64,000 nucleotides of DNA from Nitrosomonas ureae (GTDB lineage: Bacteria; Pseudomonadota; Gammaproteobacteria; Burkholderiales; Nitrosomonadaceae): positions 620,001 through 684,000 of the forward strand of contig NZ_LT907782.1 in NCBI RefSeq assembly GCF_900206265.1, in the 5' to 3' direction. Position numbers and translations under genes: made by a program. The first letter of the stretch is position 1, and each line of letters opens with the position of its first letter. Under the pieces are notes generated by a model, which made no database searches, was not told the DNA's origin, and was given only the letters and a program-made list of their open reading frames with translations. Below are positions 6,177 to 25,192 of this stretch, piece after piece.

Positions 6177-7078
6177 CTTAACGAAATACTCGCAATATCT
6201 TATAAATTCAGCTCAGTATAAAATGTTGTCCGTGTTTTGTTGAGGAAAATCATACGCAAGCAGCATATCTCATTTTATTAAAATAATATATACGTCAAAT
6301 AATTAATAGCGAATGCGATACTGCTCTTAAGAGCTCTGCGACAATTTCCGGAATTGTGTTACCTCATCCCCCGCCAATCAATTTTAGTGAAATAATGATC
6401 AATGCTGTTTGTAAAATCAGCGCGGTGGTTTCTGTGATGTAGCAGAAGATATTATTTAAGGCTATACACGGTACATTTTTTTGTTTGAATTTGAAAGATG
6501 ATGCTTTGGATTGACCGGTAATGCACTGTTCTAGCTGCTCAATTTTAATACTACCGTGCACATGAAATAATTGCTGATAAAAACCAGTCTACAAATATGC
6601 TTCACGGCCCCCTTTTTTATACCGGTCAAGCCTGAGCGAATCCCGCCATAGCGAAAAGCTTGCTCCTTAGCGCTACACAAGTTTAACTACAATCTTTTTT
6701 CTCGGGTTATTACCTTATTTGTCAGAGAGTTTCATCTATTACTCACAATTTCTGTGGATAACTTTGTGAATAACGCTTTGTTTGGTACGCTAACTTAAAT
6801 ATTTCTAAGGGTTTTTCTTGAATTGATTAATAAGTTAACACTTTAATTATTTTATATTTATCATGCAGTTATGGAACCTTCCTCAGACTGGCATGAAGTT
6901 TTTCTGATAACAATTGTATCTTACTGAAATTGTGGATGACTCAGAATGTCAAGCAAAATTTAAGTGTGCTGAAAACACGTACCCCAAGTAAAAACTGACT
7001 AGACAATCCTCAAATGAAACTGGGAGTTTTCACTGAATGATGGGCAATAATATGAATCCATTATCCCGAGAGGTACTC
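6177..7078. other. 902-bp AT-rich intergenic region with DnaA-box-like sites and one doubtful small ORF
   Basis: No convincing gene is seen. A minus-strand ORF at 6364-6561 (65 residues, hydrophobic C-terminus) resembles nothing I recognise and may be a relic. The right half is very AT-rich (6780-6860 is almost entirely A/T) and holds one perfect and two one-mismatch DnaA boxes, listed separately. There are no transposase signatures or obvious terminal repeats. Confidence 0.5.
6753..6773 (-). other. DnaA-box pair
   Basis: TGTGGATAA at 6753-6761 is the exact reverse complement of the consensus DnaA box TTATCCACA. TGTGAATAA at 6765-6773 differs by one base and follows in the same orientation, 12 bp on. 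A third site, TGTGGATGA at 6931-6939, also differs by one base. They flank an AT-rich stretch. Whether DnaA acts here is inference. Confidence 0.45.
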
Positions 7079-8035
7079 CTACAATCCGGATGATCCATGA
7101 TGTGTTTGTGCATCCAGAAATTGCTGTAAATGAGGTAATAGCCTTGATGGCGCTTCCTCCTGCACGGCATGACCCACCTCATTAAAGATAATCAGCTTCG
7201 AATTGGACAAATTCTCATGCAGACGCTCACCAATGGTCAGTGGGACAATTTCATCATCCCTGCTCCATATGATTAAGGCGGGAAGCAGCAAACTCGAATA
7301 GTTTTCTGAGAATTGCTGTAAATCTGCCGGCAACAACTGTCGTACGGTGGTGAGTGTTGCGTACTTTGCATTGGGTTTGGCGAGATTGCCTGCATAGTGA
7401 TCAATGGTGCTTTGCGGAATAGCGGCATCATTAAAATACACTTTCTTCAGCAAGCTTTTAACCTGAACAGCATTTGGAATAGCGTGGATCACTAGAGGAC
7501 CCAGTACCGGAGTGGCCAGTATTTTCACAAAGCCGGGCAGTTCTTGCGGATATGCAATACTATCTATTAACACCAGACTGCGCTGCAGGTTCGGATGCGA
7601 AGAGGATAAATAGATCGATGCAGCCAAGGCTACTCCGCCTCCGTAAGAATGACCGATAATGTGAAGATTCTTCAGATTATTTTCAAGAATAAAATTCCTT
7701 ACCAACCGTGCCTGATCATAAACGGAATAAGCGTTATCGCGTGGTTTGGGCGATTCTCCAAAGCCTTTCAGATCAATGGTGATTACCCGGTATTTCTGCG
7801 CCAAAGGTTCAACAATATGCCGCCAACTATAACTGCTGGCACCAAAACCGTGAATCAGAAGCACCGGATCCCCTTCACCCAAACTTTTAGATGCCAATCG
7901 CAATTCACCCGTCTGTTCCGGATAACGATATTGCGACCAACCCGGAATATCCTTGTCCATAACGGCACAGCCGCCAAGACCGAAAATCATACACAGACAG
8001 GCAAAAACAAAAACGCTTATGCGAGGATTTTTCAT
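7079..8035 (-). CDS. Alpha/beta-hydrolase lipoprotein
   Basis: The 318-residue protein begins with a lipoprotein signal peptide whose lipobox LGGC puts the lipidated Cys at residue 23, so it is predicted to sit in the cell envelope. The hydrolase fold is clear: the oxyanion-hole segment HGFGASSYSW (62-71), the nucleophile elbow GHSYGG with Ser130, an acidic residue in WSRDDEIVP, and the catalytic His in EVGHAVQEE near the C-terminus. The substrate cannot be told from sequence; esterase, lipase or haloperoxidase-like activity is possible. Its start overlaps the stop of the upstream small membrane protein by one base (TAATG), implying translational coupling. Confidence 0.85.
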   Translation of the reverse strand: MKNPRISVFVFACLCMIFGLGGCAVMDKDIPGWSQYRYPEQTGELRLASKSLGEGDPVLLIHGFGASSYSWRHIVEPLAQKYRVITIDLKGFGESPKPRDNAYSVYDQARLVRNFILENNLKNLHIIGHSYGGGVALAASIYLSSSHPNLQRSLVLIDSIAYPQELPGFVKILATPVLGPLVIHAIPNAVQVKSLLKKVYFNDAAIPQSTIDHYAGNLAKPNAKYATLTTVRQLLPADLQQFSENYSSLLLPALIIWSRDDEIVPLTIGERLHENLSNSKLIIFNEVGHAVQEEAPSRLLPHLQQFLDAQTHHGSSGL

Positions 8036-8427
8036 TAATTTAGAGATCGGACTAACATCACCATATCAAATAGGCCGCCAGCAGCAAAAGAAATGGCTCC
8101 GAAAATAGGCAATATCGCAATAATCCGGCAAGCTATTCTTAAATGCTCAGCTTCCTCCTTATTTTCAATCCTCATGTGACGCGGAATTGACAGGATCACA
8201 TAGCTAATCAAACTAAGAAAAATGATATTTCCAATAGTAAGCGGCAGCAGATTGGTGAAATAGATTTCTATTGGGCCGAGTGTCTTCCCGGCACAGTATC
8301 CACACTCATCGATCAGTTCAAATATCAAGTCGCGCCGTGCATTAATGGTTTGAAAAAAGCTCAGTGTCGTGTTTACTGCCCCCCATAAAGCTGCCAGCAA
8401 GACAATGGGAAGTCCCAATCGATCCAT
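8035..8427 (-). CDS. Small inner-membrane protein, unrecognised
   Basis: The 130-residue protein has three or four hydrophobic segments (around residues 5-22, 57-80, 105-125), with a polar loop carrying a CGYCAG motif (two Cys three apart) and a charged cytoplasmic-type segment RHMRIENKEEAEHLR. I do not recognise the family. It is coupled to the downstream lipoprotein hydrolase by a one-base overlap, so the two probably work together in the envelope. Confidence 0.7.
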   Translation of the reverse strand: MDRLGLPIVLLAALWGAVNTTLSFFQTINARRDLIFELIDECGYCAGKTLGPIEIYFTNLLPLTIGNIIFLSLISYVILSIPRHMRIENKEEAEHLRIACRIIAILPIFGAISFAAGGLFDMVMLVRSLN

Positions 8428-11875: not shown

Positions 11876-12709
11876 TCAATAGTGCCTTGACCGATAAACG
11901 TTACGCAAAGGCTTCACCAGCATCGACAAGCCAAACACCAACACGCTGAACAGCACAATGGTAGTACCGGAAGCGACGTTGAAAATATAACTCAAATACA
12001 TACCCATCACGCCGGTCACCGCGCCGATGATGGTCGAATAAATAATCATGCTGCTAAAACGATCCGTCAGCATTCTCGCGGTCATGGCCGGAGCAATGAG
12101 CGTAACGGCGACCATGGTAACGCCGATGACATTCAGCGACGCGATAACCGAGAATGTAAGCAACAACGAAAATAGCCATTGCACGGAAACGGTTTTGATA
12201 CCGAACACACGCGCCGCTTCATTATCGAAAGTGGAAAACAGTAATGCGCGATACGTAATGAACATGGTAATCAGCGTGAAGAAAGCGACCATCCCGATGA
12301 TCATCAAATCCTGTTCAGTGATGCCAAGAATATTGCCAAATAAAGCTGCTTCGAAGTTTTGTTTAAAATTCCGCATCTTGCTGACAATCGCCACACCCAG
12401 GGCGAACATCGCTGTGGTTACTATCCCGATCGCAGCATCCAGTTTGATTTTATTATTTTCAGTAATTTTGTTGATGATGAATGCGGCAAGTAACCCCATC
12501 GCGCACGCGCCCACATAAAAATTCAGATTCAGGGTGATACCGATTACTGCGCCGCCAATTGCCGCATGAGACAATCCGTGACCGACGTAACTCATGCCGC
12601 GCAGCACGACATAAACCCCGATCAAGCCACCGGATGCTCCCACCATCAACGCTGCAAGCAAGGCATGGCGAAAGAATTCATACTCGATCGGTTCCAACAG
12701 GAATTCCAT
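11876..12709 (-). CDS. Metal ABC transporter permease (ZnuB/MntB family), probably nickel importer
   Basis: The 277-residue permease has the 7-9 hydrophobic segments of the ABC-3 family and the conserved loop VVLRGMSYVGHGLSHAAIGG near residue 35. It forms the channel of an inner-membrane metal importer. Its start overlaps the ATPase stop by one base (TGATG), and it is the last gene of the three-gene unit. By family it would be annotated zinc or manganese transport. A NikR operator upstream of the unit, and urease nearby, make nickel more likely; that is inference. Confidence 0.88.
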   Translation of the reverse strand: MEFLLEPIEYEFFRHALLAALMVGASGGLIGVYVVLRGMSYVGHGLSHAAIGGAVIGITLNLNFYVGACAMGLLAAFIINKITENNKIKLDAAIGIVTTAMFALGVAIVSKMRNFKQNFEAALFGNILGITEQDLMIIGMVAFFTLITMFITYRALLFSTFDNEAARVFGIKTVSVQWLFSLLLTFSVIASLNVIGVTMVAVTLIAPAMTARMLTDRFSSMIIYSTIIGAVTGVMGMYLSYIFNVASGTTIVLFSVLVFGLSMLVKPLRNVYRSRHY

Positions 12710-13527
12710 CAGGGATGCTCATCCATGAAATTGAGCGGCGTACTGTTTGCAATCAGGAGATGTCCTTCGGATCTCACAATGACGATATCCCCCCCATAGG
12801 TTTTAGTCAGGATTTCGTTGGTAAATATCGTATTCGGCCGACCTTGGGCAACCAATCCCCGATTGAAACAAATCACCCAAGGCAAGTGAGATGCCACTGC
12901 ATTTAAATCGTGTGTAGTTAACAATATAGTAATACCTCCCTTATTGATATCACCCAACAAATGCAATACCTCGTGCTGAGTCTTGATATCAACCCCGGAA
13001 GTCGGTTCATCCAGGATCAGAAGCTTAGGATTGTTGATCAATGCACGCGCCAGAAACGTACGCTGTCGTTGCCCCCCCGATATATCGCTAATATGGTTTT
13101 GCAGGCAATTATCAACACCTAATCGATGCGCAAGGTCCCAAATGCAAGCTCGTTCCTGCTTACTGAGCCAAGGCCAAATACGCCCATTGGTATAAAGTCC
13201 CATGGAAATGACTTCTTCAACCGTTACCGGAAAATTCCAGTCAACACTGCCTAGTTGCGGCACATAACCTATTGTGCCTGGTCTCACTGTATTCACGGGA
13301 TAGCTATAGAGTTCCACCTGACCTGCGCTCACCGCATGAATCCCCAAAATAATCTTCAGCAACGTCGACTTCCCACAAGCCGTGGGACCGACAATTCCGG
13401 CAAATTGACCTGCGGCAATTTCCAGACAAAGGTCGTCAAATACTACATTTTGTTCATAACGAGCCGAAACGCCGGTCAATTTTACTGCAGGAACCAAGGG
13501 TGAATCAGAATGCAATGTTGCTGGCAT
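12709..13527 (-). CDS. Metal ABC transporter ATP-binding protein (ZnuC/MntA-type), probably nickel importer
   Basis: This is an ATPase subunit of about 272 residues. It has Walker A GPTACGKSTLL (an Ala-Cys variant of the usual GxxGxGK, with GCGK kept), the Q-loop in GYVPQLGSVDW, the signature SGGQRQR, Walker B LLILDEPTSGVD and the H-loop TTHDLN. It energises the permease encoded downstream. ATG at 13527 was preferred to the in-frame TTG at 13530. The gene overlaps the end of the substrate-binding protein gene by 23 bases, so the three genes form one transcript. Confidence 0.9.
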   Translation of the reverse strand: MPATLHSDSPLVPAVKLTGVSARYEQNVVFDDLCLEIAAGQFAGIVGPTACGKSTLLKIILGIHAVSAGQVELYSYPVNTVRPGTIGYVPQLGSVDWNFPVTVEEVISMGLYTNGRIWPWLSKQERACIWDLAHRLGVDNCLQNHISDISGGQRQRTFLARALINNPKLLILDEPTSGVDIKTQHEVLHLLGDINKGGITILLTTHDLNAVASHLPWVICFNRGLVAQGRPNTIFTNEILTKTYGGDIVIVRSEGHLLIANSTPLNFMDEHP

Positions 13528-14473
13528 CAATGTTGCCCATACAGGTTGAATTACCGCCTAAGGCTTCGGTCATTGTGACCATGTTAGCCGTCATCATACC
13601 GATAAAAGAATTATTAGGTGCTGCCGGAAGCTCATCATCCGAAAGTTGATCGATAAATTTGGCTTTTGCTTCCCGGGCAATTTGTTTCATCACCTTGCTG
13701 GGAAAAACTTCTGAACCAAATATGGCTGGTACCCCTGTTTCCCGGATTTGTTTAATGATACTGATAACTTCTTGGGGACCGGGTTCGGAGAAATCGGAAG
13801 GTTGAATTGCTGCGATAACTGTCATGCCATAACGTGGCGCAAAATAGGCAAAAGAGTCATGATAGGTTACCAGCTTACGGTTTTTTTCAGGAATTGTCTC
13901 AATACAATTGAAAATGGCCTGATCCAGTTTCTTTAATTTGGTCAAATAAGTTGCGGTATTTTCCTGATAATTCACTTTATTGTCAGGATCGAGCAAAATC
14001 AGGTTGTCTTTTATTATTTCTGCATAACGCATTACCAATTCAATATTTAGCCATAAATGGGGATTCGGGTGTCCGTGTTCGCGGGGAAAACTAAAATCAT
14101 ACTGCCAGTCCGCTTCTTTTAGCGTAAGGTTTCCCAGCTGCAGAATCGAAGTTTCAGACCTTTTTACCTTTCTCGCCAATTTTAATGTGGGCAATTCCAG
14201 ATCAAGGCCATTCATGATAATCATGTCGGCCGCCCGTAATATTTTTATGTCCGAAGGAATGGGCTCAAACGTATGGGAATCGATACCATCAGGAACGATT
14301 CCGGTTACTTTGATGTGTTTTCCACCGATATTTTGCACGATGTTCGTGATCGGTGAGACGGTAGTAACAATTTCCGGTACTTCATGAGTACTGGCTGCAA
14401 ATACCGAACTTTGCAAGTAAGGTAGCAGCAAACATAAAAAAATCCATGTAATTCTGAACGTTATAAATTTCAT
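13505..14473 (-). CDS. Metal-binding periplasmic protein of cluster A-I (ZnuA-like), probably nickel importer
   Basis: The protein of about 322 residues has a Sec signal peptide ending near VFAAS. Candidate metal ligands are the His in DGIDSHTFEP, the His pair in HGHPNPHLW, the His in TYHDSFAYF and acidic residues in QLSDDELP. The long His-rich loop typical of zinc-specific ZnuA is reduced to HGHPNPH. ATG at 14473 has GGGAAG eight bases upstream, better than the GTG at 14479. The NikR operator at 14507-14533 lies 34 bases upstream of this start, placing the whole transporter under nickel control. Confidence 0.88.
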   Translation of the reverse strand: MKFITFRITWIFLCLLLPYLQSSVFAASTHEVPEIVTTVSPITNIVQNIGGKHIKVTGIVPDGIDSHTFEPIPSDIKILRAADMIIMNGLDLELPTLKLARKVKRSETSILQLGNLTLKEADWQYDFSFPREHGHPNPHLWLNIELVMRYAEIIKDNLILLDPDNKVNYQENTATYLTKLKKLDQAIFNCIETIPEKNRKLVTYHDSFAYFAPRYGMTVIAAIQPSDFSEPGPQEVISIIKQIRETGVPAIFGSEVFPSKVMKQIAREAKAKFIDQLSDDELPAAPNNSFIGMMTANMVTMTEALGGNSTCMGNIDASNIAF

Positions 14474-14506
14474 AACCACGCTTCCCTTAATTAATATTCT
14501 TCTGTT

Positions 14507-14533
14507 GTATGAAAAAAAAACAATTTATCATAC
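14507..14533. promoter_or_regulatory. NikR operator in the divergent importer/receptor promoter
   Basis: GTATGA at 14507-14512 and TCATAC at 14528-14533 form a perfect inverted repeat, extended to seven bases per arm by T and A. The spacer is 15 bases and mostly A/T. The E. coli nik operator is GTATGA-N16-TCATAC, so this differs only by one spacer base within a nine-A run. It sits between the importer (start 14473, minus) and the receptor (start 14602, plus). The next plus-strand gene after the receptor is nikR. Confidence 0.72.
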
Positions 14534-14601
14534 ATTTTGAATTATTATGAGTCGCCATAAGGCATTCAAATAATAAAACATGAGATTTTACGGGGAATAA
14601 C

Positions 14602-16680
14602 ATGCAAAAAATAACTGCCCTGTCGTCCGTATCACTGCGGTTTATCCAAGCGAGTAGTATTTTATCAATGAGTTGGGCACCCTTGTGGGCCGACGCTGCA
14701 GGTATTCCAACTCTTAACGAAATGGTCGTACGTGCCAACGCGCGGGAATTGATCGGCTCTGCCAATTCCGCCAATGAAGGCACTGTCCTTAAGCATCAGC
14801 TTGATCTGCGCACGGTTTATCGTCCGGGAGAGTTACTTGAAACAGTACCGGGTTTAATTGTTACGCAACATAGTGGCGAGGGCAAAGCCAATCAATATTT
14901 CTTGCGCGGTTTTAATCTCGATCACGGCACAGACTTACGAATTACCGTCGATGGCATGTTAGTCAATCAACGTTCGCATGGTCACGGCCAAGGTTGGGCA
15001 GATACCAACTTTATCATTCCGGAATTGATAGGCAACCTGCAATACATGAAAGGGCCGTATTACGCTCATCAGGGAGATTTTTCCTCTGCCGGAGCTGTCA
15101 GTATGGGCTATGTCGATAAACTACCCAAAGGCATTGCGAGCTATGGTTTAGGACAACAAGGATTTATGCGGGGGCTGGTAACTAAATCGCATGAAGTCGG
15201 ACGTGGCAATGTTTTGTATGCGGTCGAACTGCTCACTAAAGATGGCCCATGGGTTAAGCATGAAGATTTCAAGAAATTTAATGCAGTATTGCGTTATAGC
15301 CAAGATACCGGATCAACCAAATTCAATGTTACCGCGATGGGCTACGGTGGAAACTGGAACTCTACCGATCAGATTCCGGCAAGAGGGGTAGCCAGTGGCT
15401 TCGTTCCACGATTGGGTGCCATAGATCCCAGTAGTGGCGGGGAATCGCATCGTTTTAGTCTCTCGAGCGCCCTTCAACACACAAGTCGTTATGGCATCAC
15501 TCAATTCAACTTGTATACGCTTCATAGTAATTTGGCATTATTTTCAAATTTCACCTATTTTCTGGATGATCCCGTAAATGGAGATCAATTTTCTCAGATT
15601 GACAAACGCTTTCAGTCTGCAATGAATGTAGATCATCTTTGGGTCAGCAGAATTAGAGGGATTGAGATCGAAAATACGGTAGGTGTTCAGTTTCAAAACG
15701 ACGTAATCGATAATGGACTGCTGAGCACAAAAGAACGTCAAACCTTGTCAACTACCCGCAAGGACCATATCTATCAAAACAGCGTGGGTATTTTTTATCA
15801 GAATAGTATTCAATGGCTGGAAAAATTTCGTAGCGTGGCCGGCGTCCGTTCGGATTATTATTGGTTTGATGTCAACAGCAATCTCAATGTAAACTCGGGC
15901 AACCGTTACGATAGTATGACAAATCCTAAATTGAGTCTGATTTTTGGACCTTGGGTACAAACGGAATTGTATTTTAATTATGGCAGTGGATTTCATAGTA
16001 ATGACGCGCGCGGAACAACTTCTATCGTTGATCCAAAATCTGGGGATCCGACTAACAGGGTCAATCCGCTGGTACGCTCGACCGGCTATGAAGTCGGGGT
16101 TCGCACCGCGATAATTCCAGGGCTTCAGGCTTCCTTTGCCGCATTCCAGCTGAATCTTGACTCAGAATTATTATTTGTAGGCGATGCCGGAACAACTGAG
16201 GCCAGCCGTCCAAGTAAGCGGGAAGGATTTGAGGTTTCACTGTTTTATATGCCCAAAGATTGGTTGACAATCGATATTGATTATGCATTGGCACGTGCGC
16301 GTTTTAGTGATGACGATCTCAGCGGCAATTACATCCCTGGCGCAATTAGAGGCGTAGGCAAGATGGCGGTTTCCGTCGACAACATTGGCCGGTTCTTTGG
16401 TAGCATGCAGATGCGCTATTTTGGCAAGCGCTCATTGATCGAAGATAACAGCGTACAATCCAATCATACCGTGACGCTTAATGGTCAGCTCGGGTATAAA
16501 ATCGGCAGCAATGTGCGCGTGATCCTGCAAGGATTCAATTTACTTAACACGTATGCGCATGCGATTGATTACTACTATGCTTCCAGGCTTCCTGGAGAAC
16601 CTGCGGCTGGGGTCAACGACGTGCATTTTCACCCGATCGAGACTCGTTCACTGCGGGTCAATCTGGTAGCCAATTTTTAA
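14602..16680 (+). CDS. TonB-dependent outer-membrane receptor, probably for nickel
   Basis: The 692-residue protein has a signal peptide ending near LWADA, a TonB-box-like MVVRANAREL, and a plug domain with LETVPGLIVTQHSGEG, the RGFNLDHGTDLRI segment and the His-containing SHGHGQGWADTNF. The beta-barrel ends in a C-terminal Phe (VNLVANF), as outer-membrane proteins do. GGGG lies seven bases upstream of the start. The HGHGQG plug segment recurs in a subfamily of TonB receptors whose substrates are mostly untested. Here the NikR operator 69 bases upstream, and nikR downstream, argue for nickel or a nickel complex. Energy would come from TonB-ExbBD, possibly the set at 52.6-54.5 kb. Confidence 0.88.
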   Translation: MQKITALSSVSLRFIQASSILSMSWAPLWADAAGIPTLNEMVVRANARELIGSANSANEGTVLKHQLDLRTVYRPGELLETVPGLIVTQHSGEGKANQYFLRGFNLDHGTDLRITVDGMLVNQRSHGHGQGWADTNFIIPELIGNLQYMKGPYYAHQGDFSSAGAVSMGYVDKLPKGIASYGLGQQGFMRGLVTKSHEVGRGNVLYAVELLTKDGPWVKHEDFKKFNAVLRYSQDTGSTKFNVTAMGYGGNWNSTDQIPARGVASGFVPRLGAIDPSSGGESHRFSLSSALQHTSRYGITQFNLYTLHSNLALFSNFTYFLDDPVNGDQFSQIDKRFQSAMNVDHLWVSRIRGIEIENTVGVQFQNDVIDNGLLSTKERQTLSTTRKDHIYQNSVGIFYQNSIQWLEKFRSVAGVRSDYYWFDVNSNLNVNSGNRYDSMTNPKLSLIFGPWVQTELYFNYGSGFHSNDARGTTSIVDPKSGDPTNRVNPLVRSTGYEVGVRTAIIPGLQASFAAFQLNLDSELLFVGDAGTTEASRPSKREGFEVSLFYMPKDWLTIDIDYALARARFSDDDLSGNYIPGAIRGVGKMAVSVDNIGRFFGSMQMRYFGKRSLIEDNSVQSNHTVTLNGQLGYKIGSNVRVILQGFNLLNTYAHAIDYYYASRLPGEPAAGVNDVHFHPIETRSLRVNLVANF

Positions 16681-16782
16681 TTGACAATATAAATTAACGA
16701 TTCCTTAAATTATCTGCTGATGTACGATTTTACGTTTTTCCAACCAACTGAATTCTAATCATAATTCCTAGGGGGGTGTTTT

Positions 16783-17244
16783 ATGGAGCGCTTTACTATT
16801 TCAATGGATGATCAGCTTTTTAAACAATTCGATAAACTTGCGCAGGCACGTGGTTATGACAATCGTTCAGAAGCGATTCGTGATCTTGTCAGAGAATATC
16901 TGGAAACCGCGCGCCTGCAAAAAAACAACCAAGGCTATTGTATTGCCACGCTGAGTTATATCTACAATCATCATGAAAGGGATCTGGCCAGTCAGGTAAC
17001 TTCAGCACATCACAGCCATCACGATTTGACATTGTCGAGTATGCATGTTCATATGGATCACGATAATTGCCTCGAAGTTGTTATCCTTCGCGGTACGATT
17101 CAGGATGTCCGGGCTTTTGCCAATCAGATAATTGCTACCAACGGTGTGCGGCATGGCAAATTGCACATCGTACCGATTGAATTTGCCCAGGAACATCACT
17201 CCCATTCGACTGCTGCGCATACGCATAGCAGCCCATTGACCTAA
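16783..17244 (+). CDS. nikR: Nickel-responsive regulator NikR with His-rich C-terminal tail
   Basis: This 153-residue repressor has the ribbon-helix-helix domain (RFTISMDDQLFKQFDKL, then RSEAIRDLVREYL) followed by an ACT-like nickel-binding domain. The E. coli ligands His76, His87, His89 and Cys95 correspond by alignment to His77, His88, His90 and Cys96 in SMHVHMDHDNCLE. E. coli NikR has 133 residues; here about 18 extra residues end in EHHSHSTAAHTHSS, a possible extra metal site. A strong ribosome-binding site (AGGGGGG) lies at 16770-16776. It follows the receptor gene by 102 bases in the same direction and probably shares its promoter, giving autoregulation. Confidence 0.95.
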   Translation: MERFTISMDDQLFKQFDKLAQARGYDNRSEAIRDLVREYLETARLQKNNQGYCIATLSYIYNHHERDLASQVTSAHHSHHDLTLSSMHVHMDHDNCLEVVILRGTIQDVRAFANQIIATNGVRHGKLHIVPIEFAQEHHSHSTAAHTHSSPLT

Positions 17245-17320: not shown

Positions 17321-18304
17321 TCAGTGTGAATTTCCCCAATATTTGGATTTGCTGGCGGCAAATAGAAACATCCACATGACTAAAACAAAAGGGAATGTCA
17401 GGGTCGGCAGGCCAATCGGTGCAAGGAAATTAGCCAAACCGGCCTGGCAAATAACAGTTAGAACTCCTGCCAGTAGAGCTAGAATCGCAGTGCCGGTAGT
17501 AGGCTTGAGGAAAACCCAGCCAATAGCCATCATTGTCAGCACCGGATTGAATGCATAAAGCCCCATTTCAATCAGCGTCTTATCCGCACCCAAGCAGATC
17601 GGTAAGGCGACACCAACAATTGCACCGGTTAGCGCCATGGATGCTCCGCGCAATGACGTAATTGCAATACCGATAAGAAACAGGATGCCTACAATAACGC
17701 TATCGGCAAACATCACTTCGGCGACGCCTTTTGTAATGGCGGTGTACCAGGCTTCTGCCGCATCTTGCGTAAAGGCAGCAAACTCCGCTGCTACCACTGA
17801 GGCTGCCGCAATGTCGGTGGGAATGCCGGGTTCCGGCAACACAGGACCACGCGCAAATCCGTCAAAAGAATAGACGGCTACCATAAACATCCAGCATGTC
17901 AGAACAAAGGGAGATGTCGATGCGGGAATGTTATAAGGCTGCAAAATCCGCATCAAAGCAGCGAGCACAATGGTTGATAAAATTGATGCAAGCACCACAA
18001 AAAGCCAGAGTTGTGGTGTGTTTTCCAGAAATAAAAATAGACAAGGACCTACCAAAGTTCCGTTAAAACCGTATAACCCTGCTTCGATATCATCATCCGG
18101 GAACCCTAACAAATACGCAGCAACTGTACTGCTGATTACCCCCACTGTCGCAGCAAGTCCGGCAGTAACCCCCCCAACATATAAGGCGATTAGAAAAATA
18201 AGACCGGTAACCGCATTACAGCAGAAAAACACTTGCCCTACACCTCTAAAGATAATACGCAAAGGCTTAGGTATTGCTTTGTCAATTGATAAAGACCATT
18301 CCAT
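17321..18304 (-). CDS. UT-family urea channel
   Basis: The 327-residue membrane protein has the internal duplication of UT urea transporters: GLYGFNGTLVGPCLFLF with PASTSPFVLTCW in the first half, and GLYAFNPVLTMMAIGW with LPTLTFPFVLVMWMF in the second. UT proteins are passive, urea-selective inner-membrane channels and supply the cytoplasmic urease. The gene is the last on the minus strand after ureG, with a gap of about 110 bases, and is followed by a hairpin terminator. In ammonia oxidisers, urea gives both ammonia and CO2. Confidence 0.92.
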   Translation of the reverse strand: MEWSLSIDKAIPKPLRIIFRGVGQVFFCCNAVTGLIFLIALYVGGVTAGLAATVGVISSTVAAYLLGFPDDDIEAGLYGFNGTLVGPCLFLFLENTPQLWLFVVLASILSTIVLAALMRILQPYNIPASTSPFVLTCWMFMVAVYSFDGFARGPVLPEPGIPTDIAAASVVAAEFAAFTQDAAEAWYTAITKGVAEVMFADSVIVGILFLIGIAITSLRGASMALTGAIVGVALPICLGADKTLIEMGLYAFNPVLTMMAIGWVFLKPTTGTAILALLAGVLTVICQAGLANFLAPIGLPTLTFPFVLVMWMFLFAASKSKYWGNSH

Positions 18305-18415: not shown

Positions 18416-19054
18416 TTATCGACCTGCCTGTTGTTTCACTTCGTCCAGCAGTCCTTGTTTAACAATAAAATCAATTATTTGATCAACACCTTCGCCAGTG
18501 TGCAGATTAGTAAACACAAATGGCCGATCACCTCGCATTTTTTTTGCATCTCGCGCCATCACATCCAAATTTGCTCCAACGTAGGGTGCCAAATCGATTT
18601 TATTAATGACCAGCAACGCTGAGCGGGTAATGCCAGGTCCCCCCTTGCGTGGTATTTTCTCACCCGCTGCAACATCGATCACATAAATGGTTAGATCAGA
18701 AAGTTCCGGACTGAAGGTGGAGGCTAGATTGTCGCCACCGGATTCAACCAGGATAAGATCAAGATTGGGAAAGTCGGCCGTCATGCGCGCAATGGCCTCA
18801 AGATTAATGGATGCATCTTCCCGGATGGCGGTATGCGGACATCCTCCTGTTTCCACACCCATCAGACGCTCCGGAGGCAGGGCATTGGCGCGTAATAAAA
18901 TTTCCATATCTTCCTTGGTATAGATATCGTTCGTAATGACAGCCATTTCGTAACGATCACGCATTTTCTTACTCAAAGCCTCACATAAGGCTGTTTTTCC
19001 TGATCCTACCGGACCCCCGATACCCACCCGAAGTGGATTTGATTGTTTATTCAC
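18416..19054 (-). CDS. ureG: Urease accessory GTPase UreG
   Basis: The 212-residue SIMIBI GTPase has the P-loop [13 protein letters not shown] near residues 11-23, a [17 protein letters not shown] segment containing the Cys-Pro-His metal-binding motif, the ESGGDNLAS motif, and VINKIDLAP for guanine recognition. With UreD, UreF and UreE it delivers nickel to apo-urease on GTP hydrolysis. It is 17 bases downstream of ureF in the same operon. Confidence 0.97.
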
Positions 19055-19071
19055 GTGTAATACCTCAGAAA

Positions 19072-19749
19072 TTATGACCGATATATCCTGCTATATTGCG
19101 TTTCATGTTGCATCGACAACAATGACAATCCCGGTGCCCAATTCGACAGTTCATCATCATTGAGTTGCTGCGCACGTACCGATGCTTCTTCTATGACTGA
19201 ATGTAACGACAATAAAAGACTCTGTCCGGAAACCTGTCCAAGCGGCACTGATTTCACGCAAACTAATACCTGGTTTTCAACCAAAGAAAACAACATTCCA
19301 AGCAGTGCCGCTTCATGGGGTACGCCCAGTGCTTCAGCCGCACATGCAAACGCGGTGGGTAAAGGCATTTCGGATTGATTGGCTAAAATTGCATTCAAGG
19401 AATCGTCCGCAACCTGTAGGTCCGTGACCAATTTCCCCAGAGAATACCCCATCTGTATAGTTTCCGCGCGAAACTCTGCAGTATCTCGTGCTGCAATAAA
19501 ACATTCAGTCCAGTAACTAACGGCTGCCACATCGCGCTCGGCAAATGCTTTAAGCAAGCGCCATAGGATGGGTGCTTCGAAATCCGCGATGATATTCAAG
19601 GCCTCAGAAATCCACGCACGCGCAGAATTCTCATTATGCACGTCACCCTTTTCAATAGCGGACTCCAAGCCTTGCGAATACGTATAGGCGCCAATTGGCA
19701 GCGAGGGACTTGCGAGTTGCAGTAAACGAAGCAATGAAGCGGATTGCAC
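19072..19749 (-). CDS. ureF: Urease accessory protein UreF
   Basis: The 225-residue, largely helical protein carries the family segments [21 protein letters not shown] at the N-terminus and [10 protein letters not shown] near residue 170. UreF bridges UreD and UreG in the activation complex and gates GTP hydrolysis during nickel insertion. It begins 12 bases after ureE ends. Confidence 0.95.
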
Positions 19750-19761
19750 AGTGAATGACTC

Positions 19762-20298
19762 CTAAGATTGCGAGTCGGAAGGTCTGTGAATCTTTTGACG
19801 TACTGGTATTGGCGCAAGCGGACCATGCGCATGATAATGACCATCGTCATGGTGATGGTGTCCTCCTCCACCATAAGCACCTGATTCCGGTTCAAATTGC
19901 TCATCCTCTTCGATGACAGAAGCACCCAACCCCTCCAGCATTTGTTTCAAGACAGCATCTTGATGAATACGCAGGAAAGCTTCCCCAACTTGTGTTTGCG
20001 TATGTCGATTACCCAAATGAAAAGCACAGCGCAATAAATCATGAGGCGTCTGGCAAGTAACTCGATAAGTGGGTTCTTTAGCGGCAATAATCTGCACTAC
20101 CCGCCCGTCATCGCTTCTGAGAAAATCATTATTACGTAATATTGTGCCCCGCACAGTAAAAATCGCCACTTCCTCGCCTGAGGCAAGCGTCGTTCTTAAC
20201 CGACTGTTTTCGCGCATTTCATAAGGCAAAACGAGTTGCGCATATACTGAGTCTGCATGATCTATTTTCGTATTCAGCGTAAGCATTTTTATTAACAT
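19762..20298 (-). CDS. ureE: Urease nickel metallochaperone UreE
   Basis: The 178-residue protein has the N-terminal peptide-binding domain, the central nickel-binding domain with the GNRHTQTQV segment holding the conserved His, and a His-rich tail (GGGGHHHHDDGHYHAHG) followed by about 20 residues. It stores nickel and passes it to UreG. Two ATG codons four residues apart (20298 and 20286) are possible starts; neither has a clear ribosome-binding site. Confidence 0.95.
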   Translation of the reverse strand: MLIKMLTLNTKIDHADSVYAQLVLPYEMRENSRLRTTLASGEEVAIFTVRGTILRNNDFLRSDDGRVVQIIAAKEPTYRVTCQTPHDLLRCAFHLGNRHTQTQVGEAFLRIHQDAVLKQMLEGLGASVIEEDEQFEPESGAYGGGGHHHHDDGHYHAHGPLAPIPVRQKIHRPSDSQS

Positions 20299-20413
20299 AA
20301 GTCATTGATTATATGGCAGCCATCAACGAAATAAACGTCGTGATAGCTGCTCATCGGAATGGAAAAATCCTTTGTTCCTGTTTACTCGTTAAAGAAGTAA
20401 AGAAGAATTACGC

Positions 20414-22120
20414 CTAAAACAGAAAGTAACGTTGTGCCATTGGTAATACATCTTCAGCACCGCATGTCAGCAATTGCCCATCTGCACGGACTTCATAGGT
20501 TTCCGGATCAACTTCCATCTTAGGTGTCGCGCTATTGTGAATCATGTCTTTCTTGCGCAAATTTCGGGTATTCTTTACCGCAATAATATCTTTATCCAAC
20601 TTCAGTTGATCAATTAAATTGGCATTAAGTGCGGCTTGCGAAGCAAATGTGAAACACGATGTTTTGATCCCGCCCCCATATCCTCCAAACATGTAGCGAT
20701 AATGTACTGGCTGAGGTGTTGGAATCGATGCATTAGGATCACCCATCAGCGACGCTGCAATCATTCCACCTTTCAATATCATGGATGGTTTTACGCCGAA
20801 AAAAGCTGGCCTCCATAATACAAGATCCGCATATTTACCGACTTCTATCGAACCAATTGCGTGCGCAATACCGTGTGTGATGGCTGGATTAATTGTGTAT
20901 TTGGCAACATAGCGCTTGACACGAAAATTATCATTCCTCGAATTATCTTCTTGCAATGTTCCGCGTTGTATTTTCATTTTATGCGCGGTTTGCCATGTGC
21001 GCAATACAACTTCACCAATACGCCCCATCGCCTGTGAATCTGAGGACATCATAGAAATTGCCCCCATGTCATGCAAAATATCCTCAGCGGCAATTGTTTC
21101 TTTACGGATACGTGACTCTGCAAAGGCAACATCCTCCGGAATGTTGGCGTGTAAATGATGGCACACCATCAACATATCCAAATGTTCATCAAGAGTATTG
21201 ACCGTATAAGGACGAGTCGGATTCGTAGACGATGGTAAAACATTTTCCTGACCAACAACCGCGATAATATCCGGAGCATGACCTCCACCCGCACCTTCGG
21301 TGTGGAAAGTATGAATAGTCCGATCTTTCATGGCAGCAATGGTATTCTCCAAATATCCGCCTTCATTAATGGTATCGGTATGGATTGCGACTTGTACATC
21401 ATATTTATCCGCAATATCCAAGCAATTGTCGATCGCGGCGTATGTGGTACCCCAATCTTCATGAAGCTTCAGACCACAAGCGCCGGCAAGTACTTGCTCC
21501 TCAAGCGGTGTGGGCAAGCTGGTATTACCTTTACCGAAAAAGCCTGTATTCATTACTAGCCCGTCCGATGCCCTTAGCATCGAATGAATATGCCAGGGGC
21601 CGGGCGTACAGGTGGTTGCCGCTGTTCCTACTGCAGGTCCGGTACCGCCACCCAGCATGGTAGTGATGCCGTTCATCATGGCATCTTCGGCTTGTTGCGG
21701 AGAAATGAAGTGAATATGGGTATCAACACCGCCTGCGGTAACAATCGAATTTTCACCAGCAATAATCTCAGTCGCTGAGCCAATTGCCATCGTAACATTC
21801 GGCTGAATATCCGGGTTACCGGCTTTTCCGATATTAGCTACTTTGCCATTCTTGATCCCTATATCCGCTTTTACAATCCCCCAGTGATCGATAATGATCG
21901 CATTGGTAATGACGGTATCCATAACATCCGCATGATTTCGCTGTGATTGTCCCATACCATCCCGGATCACTTTGCCACCACCGAATTTCACCTCTTCACC
22001 ATATGTAGTGAAATCTTTTTCAATTTCTATAAATAGTTCTGTATCTGCCAGACGAACACGATCCCCGGTCGTTGGACCCATCATCTCGGCATAGTTTCGA
22101 CGGGAAATTTTTACGCTCAT
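20414..22120 (-). CDS. ureC: Urease alpha subunit UreC (catalytic)
   Basis: The 568-residue catalytic subunit has all expected active-site residues: His135 and His137 (DTHIHF), carbamylated Lys218 (GLKLHEDWG), His247 and His273 as nickel ligands, flap Cys320-His321 (MVCHHL) and Asp361 (SSDSQAMGR). It hydrolyses urea to ammonia and carbamate at a di-nickel centre in the cytoplasm. It follows ureB by 33 bases. The 115-base gap to ureE is the longest gap between ureC and ureG. Confidence 0.98.
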
Positions 22121-22153
22121 TTTCTTACTCCTGTAAAATTATTGCGATACAAA

Positions 22154-22474
22154 CTATTTGAGTTTGCCCATCACTTTTTGGTTAAATCCATAAACGATCC
22201 GATCTCCCGCAAGCTCAACAAGCTCAATCGTTCTTTCTTGCCCTGGTTCGAAACGAATAGCTGTCCCGGCCATAATATTCAGGCGCATGCCATAGGCAGC
22301 TTCTCTATCAAATTTCATGGCAGAATTAACCTCATAAAAATGAAAATGGGAGCCTATCTGTATTGGGCGATCCCCTCCATTTGAGACGGTTAGAGTTTTA
22401 GTGTTTCTACCCACGTTTAATTCTATTTCTCCCGCCTCAGTAAATACTTCACCTGGAATCATCGGTACTCTCAT
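22154..22474 (-). CDS. ureB: Urease beta subunit UreB
   Basis: The 106-residue subunit has the family features [16 protein letters not shown], the [19 protein letters not shown] strand and the [20 protein letters not shown] segment. It assembles with UreA and UreC into the (abc)3 urease core. It is 25 bases downstream of ureA. Confidence 0.97.
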
Positions 22475-22499
22475 GGCGATCTCCTATACTTTAAATTAG

Positions 22500-22802
22500 C
22501 TAAACAATCGGATTATGAACAGTCACCAGTTTTGTACCATCTGGGAACGTTGCTTCAACCTGAATGTCCGGAATCATTTCGGGAACACCTTCCATGACAT
22601 CAGAGCGAGTTAATATTCTTTGCCCGGCAGCCATAAGCTCTGCCACCGTCCGACCATCTCTGGCCCCTTCCAGTACAGCACATGTAATCAGAGCAACTGC
22701 TTCAGGATAATTCAGTCGTAAACCACGCGCTTTACGTCTTTCTGCGAGTAGTCCGGCAGTAAATATCATTAGCTTGTCCTTCTCTCTCGGTGTTAAGTCC
22801 AT
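22500..22802 (-). CDS. ureA: Urease gamma subunit UreA
   Basis: The 100-residue subunit has [15 protein letters not shown] at the N-terminus, the [17 protein letters not shown] segment and the C-terminal [20 protein letters not shown], all diagnostic of the family. It is a structural part of the urease core. A 91-base gap separates it from ureD. Confidence 0.97.
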
Positions 22803-22893
22803 AGTTTTTCTCCTGGGTAAAATAACATTTACAATTTAAAGCTGCTGCAGCATCGTTAATGTAAAAACACTACAATTAATTATTACTAGGGAT

Positions 22894-23841
22894 TCACGTA
22901 TTCCACATCCGCGGCACAATAGCAGCACTTCCGATTAATTCGGGTCGCAGCAAACCCCAGACACACAACATTACCTGCCTTGCCACTTCGCTTGAATCAC
23001 CCAAATAACGCACCACCACAGCTGATTTAAGTTGCGATAGGCCGACCTGGCCGGTTCCCTTTGTAATTTTATTTGTTTCTTCTCGAACCAGATCAATCAA
23101 TGGCTGAGGTATTGTTTTTCCAGTCAAAATCAGTGTCGCGCAGACTGTTTTTCCAGACAATGCCAAAGCGCCATTCATCGCAGAGCTCTCGCCAAGAAGG
23201 CGTATTTGCTCCAGCCAGATCAACTTGTTATTTCTCTTGATACTGGTACGTTGCTTGATTTGTCCGTTACTGAATGTTTCACCGTAGGCGGTTCTTCCAA
23301 AACACAATATTTCACAACCTACATAAACTGCGTCATCTTCCAGGATCACCTGATGATCAATTTCTACGTTTGCATTGTTGTAAAAAATGGTTTCCTGTGG
23401 TACCCATTCAAGAGAGCCACCTTTTCTTACATAGACTTTGATTTTCTGATGTGAAGTATGGCCGTTGGCTTTATACCATTTGGCAGCACCGGGGGTAGTT
23501 ATCTGTGCATTGGCCGATGCATCGACTTGAGCTGAAATTTCCAGCTGATCACCACCTACAATTCCACCTGGCGGATGAATAATCACCACATGGCAAATCT
23601 TTTGTCCTTCAGGGTAAAAAGGTTTCTGTACTAATAAAGGACCGAAGTGTTCTCGTTCTACGAGGCGCGTTACCCCATCCACTTCAGAGAATTTGAGTGA
23701 TAATCTTGCTTGGAGGGGCTTATGCTCTGAAGCTACGTTTGAAGTGGGCATAACGGCATCAGTTGGCTGCTTGAAATCACTCGGAACAGTAAAATGCCGC
23801 TGCGTGATCTCTGATTCTTCGGAGTAAGTGGATAACAACAT
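22894..23841 (-). CDS. ureD: Urease accessory protein UreD
   Basis: UreD (UreH) binds apo-urease and carries nickel from UreG to the active site. The protein has RLVEREHFGPLLVQKPFYPEG, VVIIHPPGGIVGGDQLEI and TTPGAAKWY, which are family hallmarks. The frame is open to 23952, but the first 37 residues have no family resemblance and overlap the upstream gene. ATG at 23841 gives 315 residues and is the sensible start. It lies 46 bases after the porin-like gene and may be co-transcribed with it. Confidence 0.94.
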   Translation of the reverse strand: MLLSTYSEESEITQRHFTVPSDFKQPTDAVMPTSNVASEHKPLQARLSLKFSEVDGVTRLVEREHFGPLLVQKPFYPEGQKICHVVIIHPPGGIVGGDQLEISAQVDASANAQITTPGAAKWYKANGHTSHQKIKVYVRKGGSLEWVPQETIFYNNANVEIDHQVILEDDAVYVGCEILCFGRTAYGETFSNGQIKQRTSIKRNNKLIWLEQIRLLGESSAMNGALALSGKTVCATLILTGKTIPQPLIDLVREETNKITKGTGQVGLSQLKSAVVVRYLGDSSEVARQVMLCVWGLLRPELIGSAAIVPRMWNT

Positions 23842-23887
23842 GGTTTTTTTCCAGTATTTATTAACGGAGAAAAGATTACAGAAAATC

Positions 23888-25192
23888 CTAAATTTGTAAC
23901 TGGAAAGAAATTTTAAAAACATCAAGCGTTGGACCTGAAATTCCGGGAGCATAATTTAATCCCTTCATCAGCAGATCTCCATGCTGATAGTAGGCTGAAA
24001 TACGTGCATTAAATCCATCGATAATATAGTTTAGACCCGTTTCAATTTCTTCTCGATTACTGCTTACATTGGGTTGGACGCTGGTAAATCTGCCATAAGG
24101 CTGAAAATGCCCTATGCCAATTTTAGTTGGAAACATATAAAGACCGGTTACTGTCCACGACTTACCATCAAACATGCAGAAGCAATCGCGATCAGAAAAT
24201 GCGGCGGTAGAATAGTTAGCATAAAATTGTTTATATTCGGCGTTTAGAGTAGTAACTCCCATGTTCCTGGGCAATACTTTTTCAAATAGCAAATCACCTG
24301 TAAAACCAAGAAAATCACTACGATTTGTAAACGAGCCGGCACCATTCTTTTGATAAGACATACCAAACGCGAGTGCTAAAATATCTCCCGCTTTGCCATA
24401 ATACGTGCTGGAAGTGTAATAACCGGGGTTTTTTTCCGGATTCAGAAAATTATAGGTAACACGCGCAGCTGTCAGTATAGTGCCGCCCGGATTAGGACCT
24501 GCAGTTTTCGAGGATTCCAAGCCACGAAAAACTCCCACTGCATAACCCAGCGTGCCTGGAATAATACCAGGCTCTGCATTACCCCAAAAAGTTACACCGT
24601 CGTCACGGCCGTAACGACCGGCACCACCCTCACCAAACTTAGTGCTGAAATCTTGAGAAAAGAAAGGGGTTTTGAATGCATCATGGGTAGCCTGGAAAAA
24701 AGGACCGCTTAATTCCCCCCGTTCCGTGGGTGCCAACATACGCCCCCCCCATATATTAAAGTAGCGGTTGTACTCAAATTTAACAATCGCATCCAGAATG
24801 TTGTAGGACATCTTTGGATTTTCACCAGAAGCGGTATTGTTACAAAAGAAGCACTCGGTATTCACTTCGAATTTGAAATGCTGATTAAACTGCCCATTGA
24901 GATAAAGACGCGCATTGTCATTGCTGTAGGCACCATCGTTTAAATTTCCAGAATTTGGATTTTCCGTCCACAACCCTGTACCGCGATACCCCGCACCTAA
25001 GCTAATCCATCTGTTTTCATTCGTTTCCACCCTGAGCATCTTTTTAATCGGTGCCGTTGCTCCGGCCATCGAGTGGGCTTTCGATGCAGATAAAAGAAAA
25101 ACACTTATTAATAGAGTCGTTAGGAAAAACCATATCCATACCTGTTTCCTCAATTTTTTATTACTTATATGGAAACTGCGCGGGTCGAACAT
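23888..25192 (-). CDS. Outer-membrane porin-like beta-barrel protein, possibly for urea or nickel
   Basis: This protein of about 434 residues has a signal peptide (FFLTTLLISVFLLSASKAHS) and alternating hydrophobic strands ending in an aromatic-rich C-terminus (DVFKISFQLQI), as in outer-membrane barrels. ATG at 25192 has GGAG nine bases upstream and was chosen over ATG at 25255. It immediately precedes ureD on the same strand, so a role in bringing urea (or nickel) across the outer membrane is inferred. Unusually it has four cysteines in two pairs (TECFFCNN and RDCFCMFDG). A run of eight G on the coding strand (24743-24750) encodes WGGR. Confidence 0.75.
   Translation of the reverse strand: MFDPRSFHISNKKLRKQVWIWFFLTTLLISVFLLSASKAHSMAGATAPIKKMLRVETNENRWISLGAGYRGTGLWTENPNSGNLNDGAYSNDNARLYLNGQFNQHFKFEVNTECFFCNNTASGENPKMSYNILDAIVKFEYNRYFNIWGGRMLAPTERGELSGPFFQATHDAFKTPFFSQDFSTKFGEGGAGRYGRDDGVTFWGNAEPGIIPGTLGYAVGVFRGLESSKTAGPNPGGTILTAARVTYNFLNPEKNPGYYTSSTYYGKAGDILALAFGMSYQKNGAGSFTNRSDFLGFTGDLLFEKVLPRNMGVTTLNAEYKQFYANYSTAAFSDRDCFCMFDGKSWTVTGLYMFPTKIGIGHFQPYGRFTSVQPNVSSNREEIETGLNYIIDGFNARISAYYQHGDLLMKGLNYAPGISGPTLDVFKISFQLQI

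Follow-up and report, generated by a model that had tools for sequence, protein, structure and literature searches.

Organization of the locus

The stretch of DNA analysed here (the window) spans positions 620001–684000 of the 3,064,188-base, single-contig genome of Nitrosomonas ureae, i.e., 64 kb of 3.06 Mb. It contains the genes of a metal ABC importer and, divergent from them, a gene for a TonB-dependent receptor that is followed by nikR, a urea transporter gene and a urease cluster (Table 1). Inspection of the sequence alone had suggested a ZnuABC-like importer of cluster A-I facing away from a TonB receptor and nikR, and Pfam searches confirmed all of these parts. The gene of the substrate-binding protein (SBP) starts with the ATG at 14473, with AAGGGAAG just before it, and the receptor gene with the ATG at 14602, which leaves an intergenic region of 128 bp (14474–14601). 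The three importer genes are organized in one operon and encode a ZnuA-fold SBP with four metal ligands, an ABC-3 permease and an ATPase, the composition of a cluster A-I/ABC-3 importer. The regulator was identified as NikR based on its RHH and NikR_C domains, a profile score of 202 bits against the NCBIfam equivalog cut-off of 83, and an end-to-end alignment with E. coli NikR in which the nickel-binding region (H/H/H/C ligands) is kept. Within the urease cluster, UreE (19762–20298) carries a C-terminal histidine-rich tract, GGGGHHHHDDGHYHAHG, like that of nickel-storing UreE proteins.

Table 1. Genes and features of the N. ureae locus (positions within the window)
Feature	Position	Strand	Basis
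ABC-3 family permease of metal importer	11876..12709	-	Pfam ABC-3 6e-68; top NCBIfam AztB, 194 bits vs 280 cut-off
ATPase of metal importer	12709..13530	-	Pfam ABC_tran; top NCBIfam manganese MntA and AztA, both under cut-off
Periplasmic SBP, cluster A-I, ZnuA family	13505..14473	-	Pfam ZnuA 2e-71; AlphaFold model
Predicted NikR operator, GTATGA-N15-TCATAC	14507..14533		Pattern match and conservation in relatives
TonB-dependent receptor, predicted nickel(-chelate) receptor	14602..16680	+	Pfam Plug and TonB_dep_Rec; BtuB nearest PDB sequence, weak
NikR, 153 aa, His-rich C-terminal tail	16783..17244	+	Pfam RHH and NikR_C; NCBIfam PRK02967 equivalog above cut-off
Yut-type urea transporter (context, outside the operator unit)	17321..18304	-	NCBIfam urea_trans_yut above cut-off
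Urease cluster ureG, ureF, ureE, ureC, ureB, ureA, ureD; nickel-requiring enzyme (context)	18416..23952	-	Gene content

A predicted NikR operator conserved among relatives

The perfect GTATGA/TCATAC inverted repeat noticed earlier in the intergenic region was verified with respect to both its coordinates and its arms. It is matched once in the 64 kb, where 0.01 matches are expected, and is the sole exact copy in the 3.06-Mb genome. The published format of enterobacterial NikR operators is GTATGAT-N13/14-ATCATAC with a total length of 27–28 bp (PMC545781), and it accommodates both the 15 bases between the arms in N. ureae and the 16 bases at E. coli nikA. By length, arms and position near uptake genes, the repeat thus qualifies as a putative NikR operator. 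When one mismatch was permitted, the genome yielded eight matches compared with seven for a reversed-pattern control; the additional one-mismatch sites were therefore set aside as background. A whole-genome scan with three mismatches was uninformative (1338 matches versus 1032 for the control).

Conservation of the repeat was assessed in 49 Nitrosomonas congeners. Its loss in close relatives had been named beforehand as an observation that would speak against NikR control; yet all 21 congeners in which the gene pair is divergent have kept it, 12 of them exactly and nine with one mismatch (the N. ureae window itself not being counted), and the spacing is invariably 15. Exact sites in the 49 genomes numbered 21, compared with none for the reversed control. 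Fourteen of them are located between the SBP and receptor genes (in 13 genomes), two before ureD and one before a different TonB receptor, whereas the other four, one of which lies within ureC, look like chance matches. The NikR-type operator before this different receptor is that of G047:C24 (L198:8520); the receptor is only 24% identical to that of N. ureae and represents a second candidate nickel receptor.

The pattern extends beyond the genus. Sites with spacing 15 and at most one mismatch were present in 40 of the 66 SBP upstream regions of proteobacterial relatives for which enough upstream sequence was available. In the same regions, other spacings from 9 to 23 gave zero or one site, and shuffled arms a mean of 0.1. 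Over 22 non-redundant loci, a count that leaves out sites very near the start codon, conservation amounted to 0.96–0.98 in the arms and to 0.40–0.43 in the flanks.

Co-occurrence of the importer with urease

An importer with at least 60% identity is encoded in exactly those 30 of the 49 congeners that possess ureC, whereas all 19 ureC-free congeners are without such an importer (Fisher 5e-14, uncorrected for phylogeny, the species of this one genus not being independent). Importer and urease genes are often physically linked, and they also co-occur in genomes where separate contigs carry them (G024, G031, G039) or where 1.8 Mb lies between them (G028). Eight congeners display the order ureE-SBP-ATPase-permease on one strand, with the importer genes immediately behind the gene of the urease nickel chaperone UreE and away from the receptor. 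In species with this linkage, NikR-like sites were detected before ureD, exact in G004 and G006 and with one mismatch in G026 and G035; G026 has a further one-mismatch site before the receptor gene. Because the exact sites of G004 (L101:432) and G006 (L106:1501), where the importer genes come after ureE, are located immediately 5' of ureD, they suggest that NikR may govern urease itself in these two species.

Some genomes depart from the common pattern. No nikR gene was detected in three urease-positive congeners, one of which is represented by a genome that is only 75% complete. Urease-free G011 retains a receptor of about 76% identity (L202, G011:C8:1-18000, about 6359–8401), and nikR, importer and operator were not found nearby. 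At L030 (G022:C71) the SBP match contains an in-frame TAG and the remainder of the gene is located on a different contig, which indicates either a pseudogene or an assembly break.

With regard to other routes of nickel entry, none of the 49 congeners encodes a NiCoT transporter, and HupE/UreJ is missing from the N. ureae genome. Neither of these two nickel-importer families thus competes with the ABC importer, which is the only nickel candidate among the families tested.

Gene neighbourhoods in wider relatives

In 62 of 67 proteobacterial relatives, nikR, receptor or urease genes are found within about 10 kb of the importer; three of the other five lie on short loci. The nikR gene adjoins the importer in relatives from Nitrosospira, Rhodospirillales and deltaproteobacteria, and in a Rhodospirillales genome it lies beside the SBP gene together with an operator containing one mismatch. 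A contig of a deltaproteobacterial MAG (L192, 4756–12696) harbours, all on one strand, nikR, a TonB receptor, an MFS, a TonB, the SBP, the ATPase and the permease. This is a compact candidate nickel module, in which the receptor match is split across two reading frames. Three genomes from other families encode receptor homologues of about 50% identity in divergent pairs with nikR, and in one of these genomes an exact operator lies in between.

No nikR, receptor or urease gene was detected near the importer in 13 relatives (Chloroflexi, Rubrobacter and others), and Pfam and NCBIfam scans of selected neighbours of such distant homologues did not uncover nickel genes. Likewise, motifs of hydrogenase and nickel-SOD were not found near any of the 80 named relatives. 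Given these 13 relatives with no nickel-related neighbours, the wider importer subfamily may not carry nickel throughout.

Properties of the binding protein

The closest named match of the SBP is that of Nitrosomonas ureae Nm13 (93%). Counted from the ATG at 14473, its predicted metal ligands are H67, H139, H205 and D279 (or D280), none of which varies among 80 relatives. The H,H,H,D set is that of zinc-type SBPs such as TroA and AztC. In the manganese and iron SBPs that we aligned, by contrast, a glutamate occupies the position of His205. The AlphaFold model (mean pLDDT 84; low confidence at residues 130–138, near the conserved DFSFP motif) has YfeA, MntC, AztC and TroA as its nearest folds, and overall the nearest solved sequences and folds are manganese/iron SBPs such as YfeA, MntC and PsaA.

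Curated families label the subunits as zinc or manganese transporters, with every score under the cut-off. This applies to ZnuABC (ZnuA 89.5 vs 268, ZnuB 121 vs 284), for which a Zur-like box is also missing from the intergenic region, as well as to AztABC (AztC 185 vs 350, AztB 194 vs 280, AztA 164 vs 220). Since H,H,H,D ligands are known from zinc-type SBPs, the sequence gives no preference for nickel over zinc. The protein is compatible with either metal, and the case for nickel is a regulatory and phyletic one.

Discussion

Taken at sequence level, the locus is best read as a NikR-controlled nickel uptake system that spans both membranes and serves urease, an interpretation that we regard as highly probable. 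We infer nickel as the substrate, binding and repression by NikR, and control of both divergent units from a single site. Under nickel-sufficient conditions, Ni-NikR would occupy the 27-bp operator and repress both the SBP-ATPase-permease operon and the receptor-nikR unit. Nickel scarcity would release NikR from the operator, whereupon the TonB receptor would convey nickel to the periplasm, probably in chelated form. There the SBP would take it up via its H,H,H,D site for import by the ABC-3 permease and the ATPase, and UreE, UreG, UreF and UreD would finally insert it into urease.

The regulatory part of this model has a variant, compatible with nickel as the substrate, in which the palindrome controls just one of the divergent units, or NikR acts as an activator, such that co-repression does not occur. 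We consider it unlikely, though with appreciable weight. It could account for the single site in the N. ureae intergenic region as opposed to two in several relatives, and for the ureE-linked species, whose sites precede ureD or the receptor gene and not the SBP gene. Moreover, promoters could not be placed in the intergenic region, where prediction was no better than with shuffled sequences. As for activation, Helicobacter NikR can activate urease genes according to earlier work cited in PMC11578231. On the other hand, with distances of 33 bp to the SBP start and 68 bp to the receptor start, the repeat is close enough to act on the promoters of both, and in E. coli as well as in H. pylori NikR functions as a repressor of uptake genes.

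As to the metal, the sequence-only reading had favoured nickel over zinc, and we arrive at the same preference from the joint occurrence of importer and urease, the ureE-linked arrangement, and the adjacency of nikR and importer genes in other classes. Transport of manganese or iron, or of multi-metal metallophore complexes with nickel as one passenger, appears very unlikely. It would agree with YfeA, MntC and PsaA being the closest solved relatives, and metallophore receptors can carry several metals. However, all 80 relatives have a histidine where the aligned manganese/iron SBPs have glutamate, the window including the intergenic region contains no Fur-type box, and the exact co-occurrence with urease fits nickel instead. 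The idea that the importer carries zinc, as its family name says, and is found near nikR and urease incidentally appears very unlikely as well. It has on its side the H,H,H,D ligands, the best curated matches to the zinc transporter AztABC (under the cut-off), and the SBP being the sole ZnuA-family protein in the genome. Yet all 19 urease-free congeners do without the importer, and 18 of them have no detectable ZnuA homologue despite their need for zinc. Since, in addition, a ZIP transporter is nearly universal (46 of 49 congeners regardless of urease, including the N. ureae genome), zinc is the less likely substrate. Control by Zur, named at the outset as evidence that would count against nickel, finds no counterpart in a Zur-like box between the divergent genes, although a Zur-like regulator is present (weak match); instead, this region contains a NikR-type operator conserved far above its flanks.

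NikR-dependent nickel acquisition across two membranes has precedents. H. pylori FrpB4 with NiuBDE and H. mustelae NikH with CeuE/FecDE combine a NikR-repressed TonB nickel receptor with an ABC importer that feeds urease (PMC5140060, PMC3856676). FrpB4 and NiuBDE resemble the proposed N. ureae system in coupling such a receptor with an inner-membrane ABC importer for urease, but NiuBDE is an ABC importer of the FecCD/siderophore type, whereas N. ureae has an ABC-3 permease and a cluster A-I SBP of the ZnuA family. Bll6948, Daro_3944, RPA_4757 and others are TonB receptors predicted for nickel or cobalt (PMC11247825, PMC3400609); the available excerpts of these accounts mention no ABC-3 partner. 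NikMNQO, NiCoT, HupE/UreJ and UreH are further nickel importers often encoded near urease or under NikR (PMC2667541), all from families unrelated to the N. ureae importer; neither Znu nor TonB is mentioned in that study by Zhang et al. (2009). Conversely, AztABC of Paracoccus (zinc), YfeABCD, PsaABC/MntABC and ZnuABC share subunit families and folds with the importer but have zinc, manganese or iron as their known substrates, without known NikR control.

The combination of a ZnuABC-type importer with a dedicated receptor had been put forward as a less described nickel system. This holds for the importer half. It does not hold for the receptor half, because NikR-controlled nickel receptors are already known or predicted (FrpB4, FecA3 and NikH; Bll6948 and Daro_3944). 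The nickel-uptake literature that we surveyed covers NiCoT, UreH, HupE/UreJ, NikABCDE/Opp, NikMNQO and NiuBDE and includes no cluster A-I/ABC-3 type, which we thus provisionally regard as new to it, older regulon and genome work lying outside its coverage. A broader proposal, whose prospects we see as evenly balanced, is that a distinct cluster A-I/ABC-3 subfamily with a [YF]DFSFP-type motif and H,H,H,D ligands, present in Nitrosomonadaceae, other proteobacteria, Chloroflexi and Actinobacteria, constitutes another structural class of nickel ABC importer in addition to NikABCDE/Opp, NikMNQO and NiuBDE, and that many genes annotated for zinc or manganese belong to it. If nickel is the substrate, a new pump family would join the known bacterial nickel importers, and automated annotation would misname a subfamily that imports nickel. 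It would also explain how urea-using ammonia oxidisers, which matter in the nitrification of urea fertiliser, could get nickel for urease across both membranes. Furthermore, the H,H,H,D binding protein would offer a clean test case for the selection of nickel over zinc.

On the side of regulation, E. coli NikABCDE/NikR shares with N. ureae a homologous NikR and the GTATGA/TCATAC arms. The E. coli transporter, a representative of the Opp/Dpp type, combines two permeases with two ATPases (PMC11247825) and is not known to have a receptor partner; its operator differs in having spacing 16 instead of 15. Among the relatives, Nitrosovibrio sp. Nv17 (L163, 9827) is the only one that has an operator with the E. 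coli spacing of 16.
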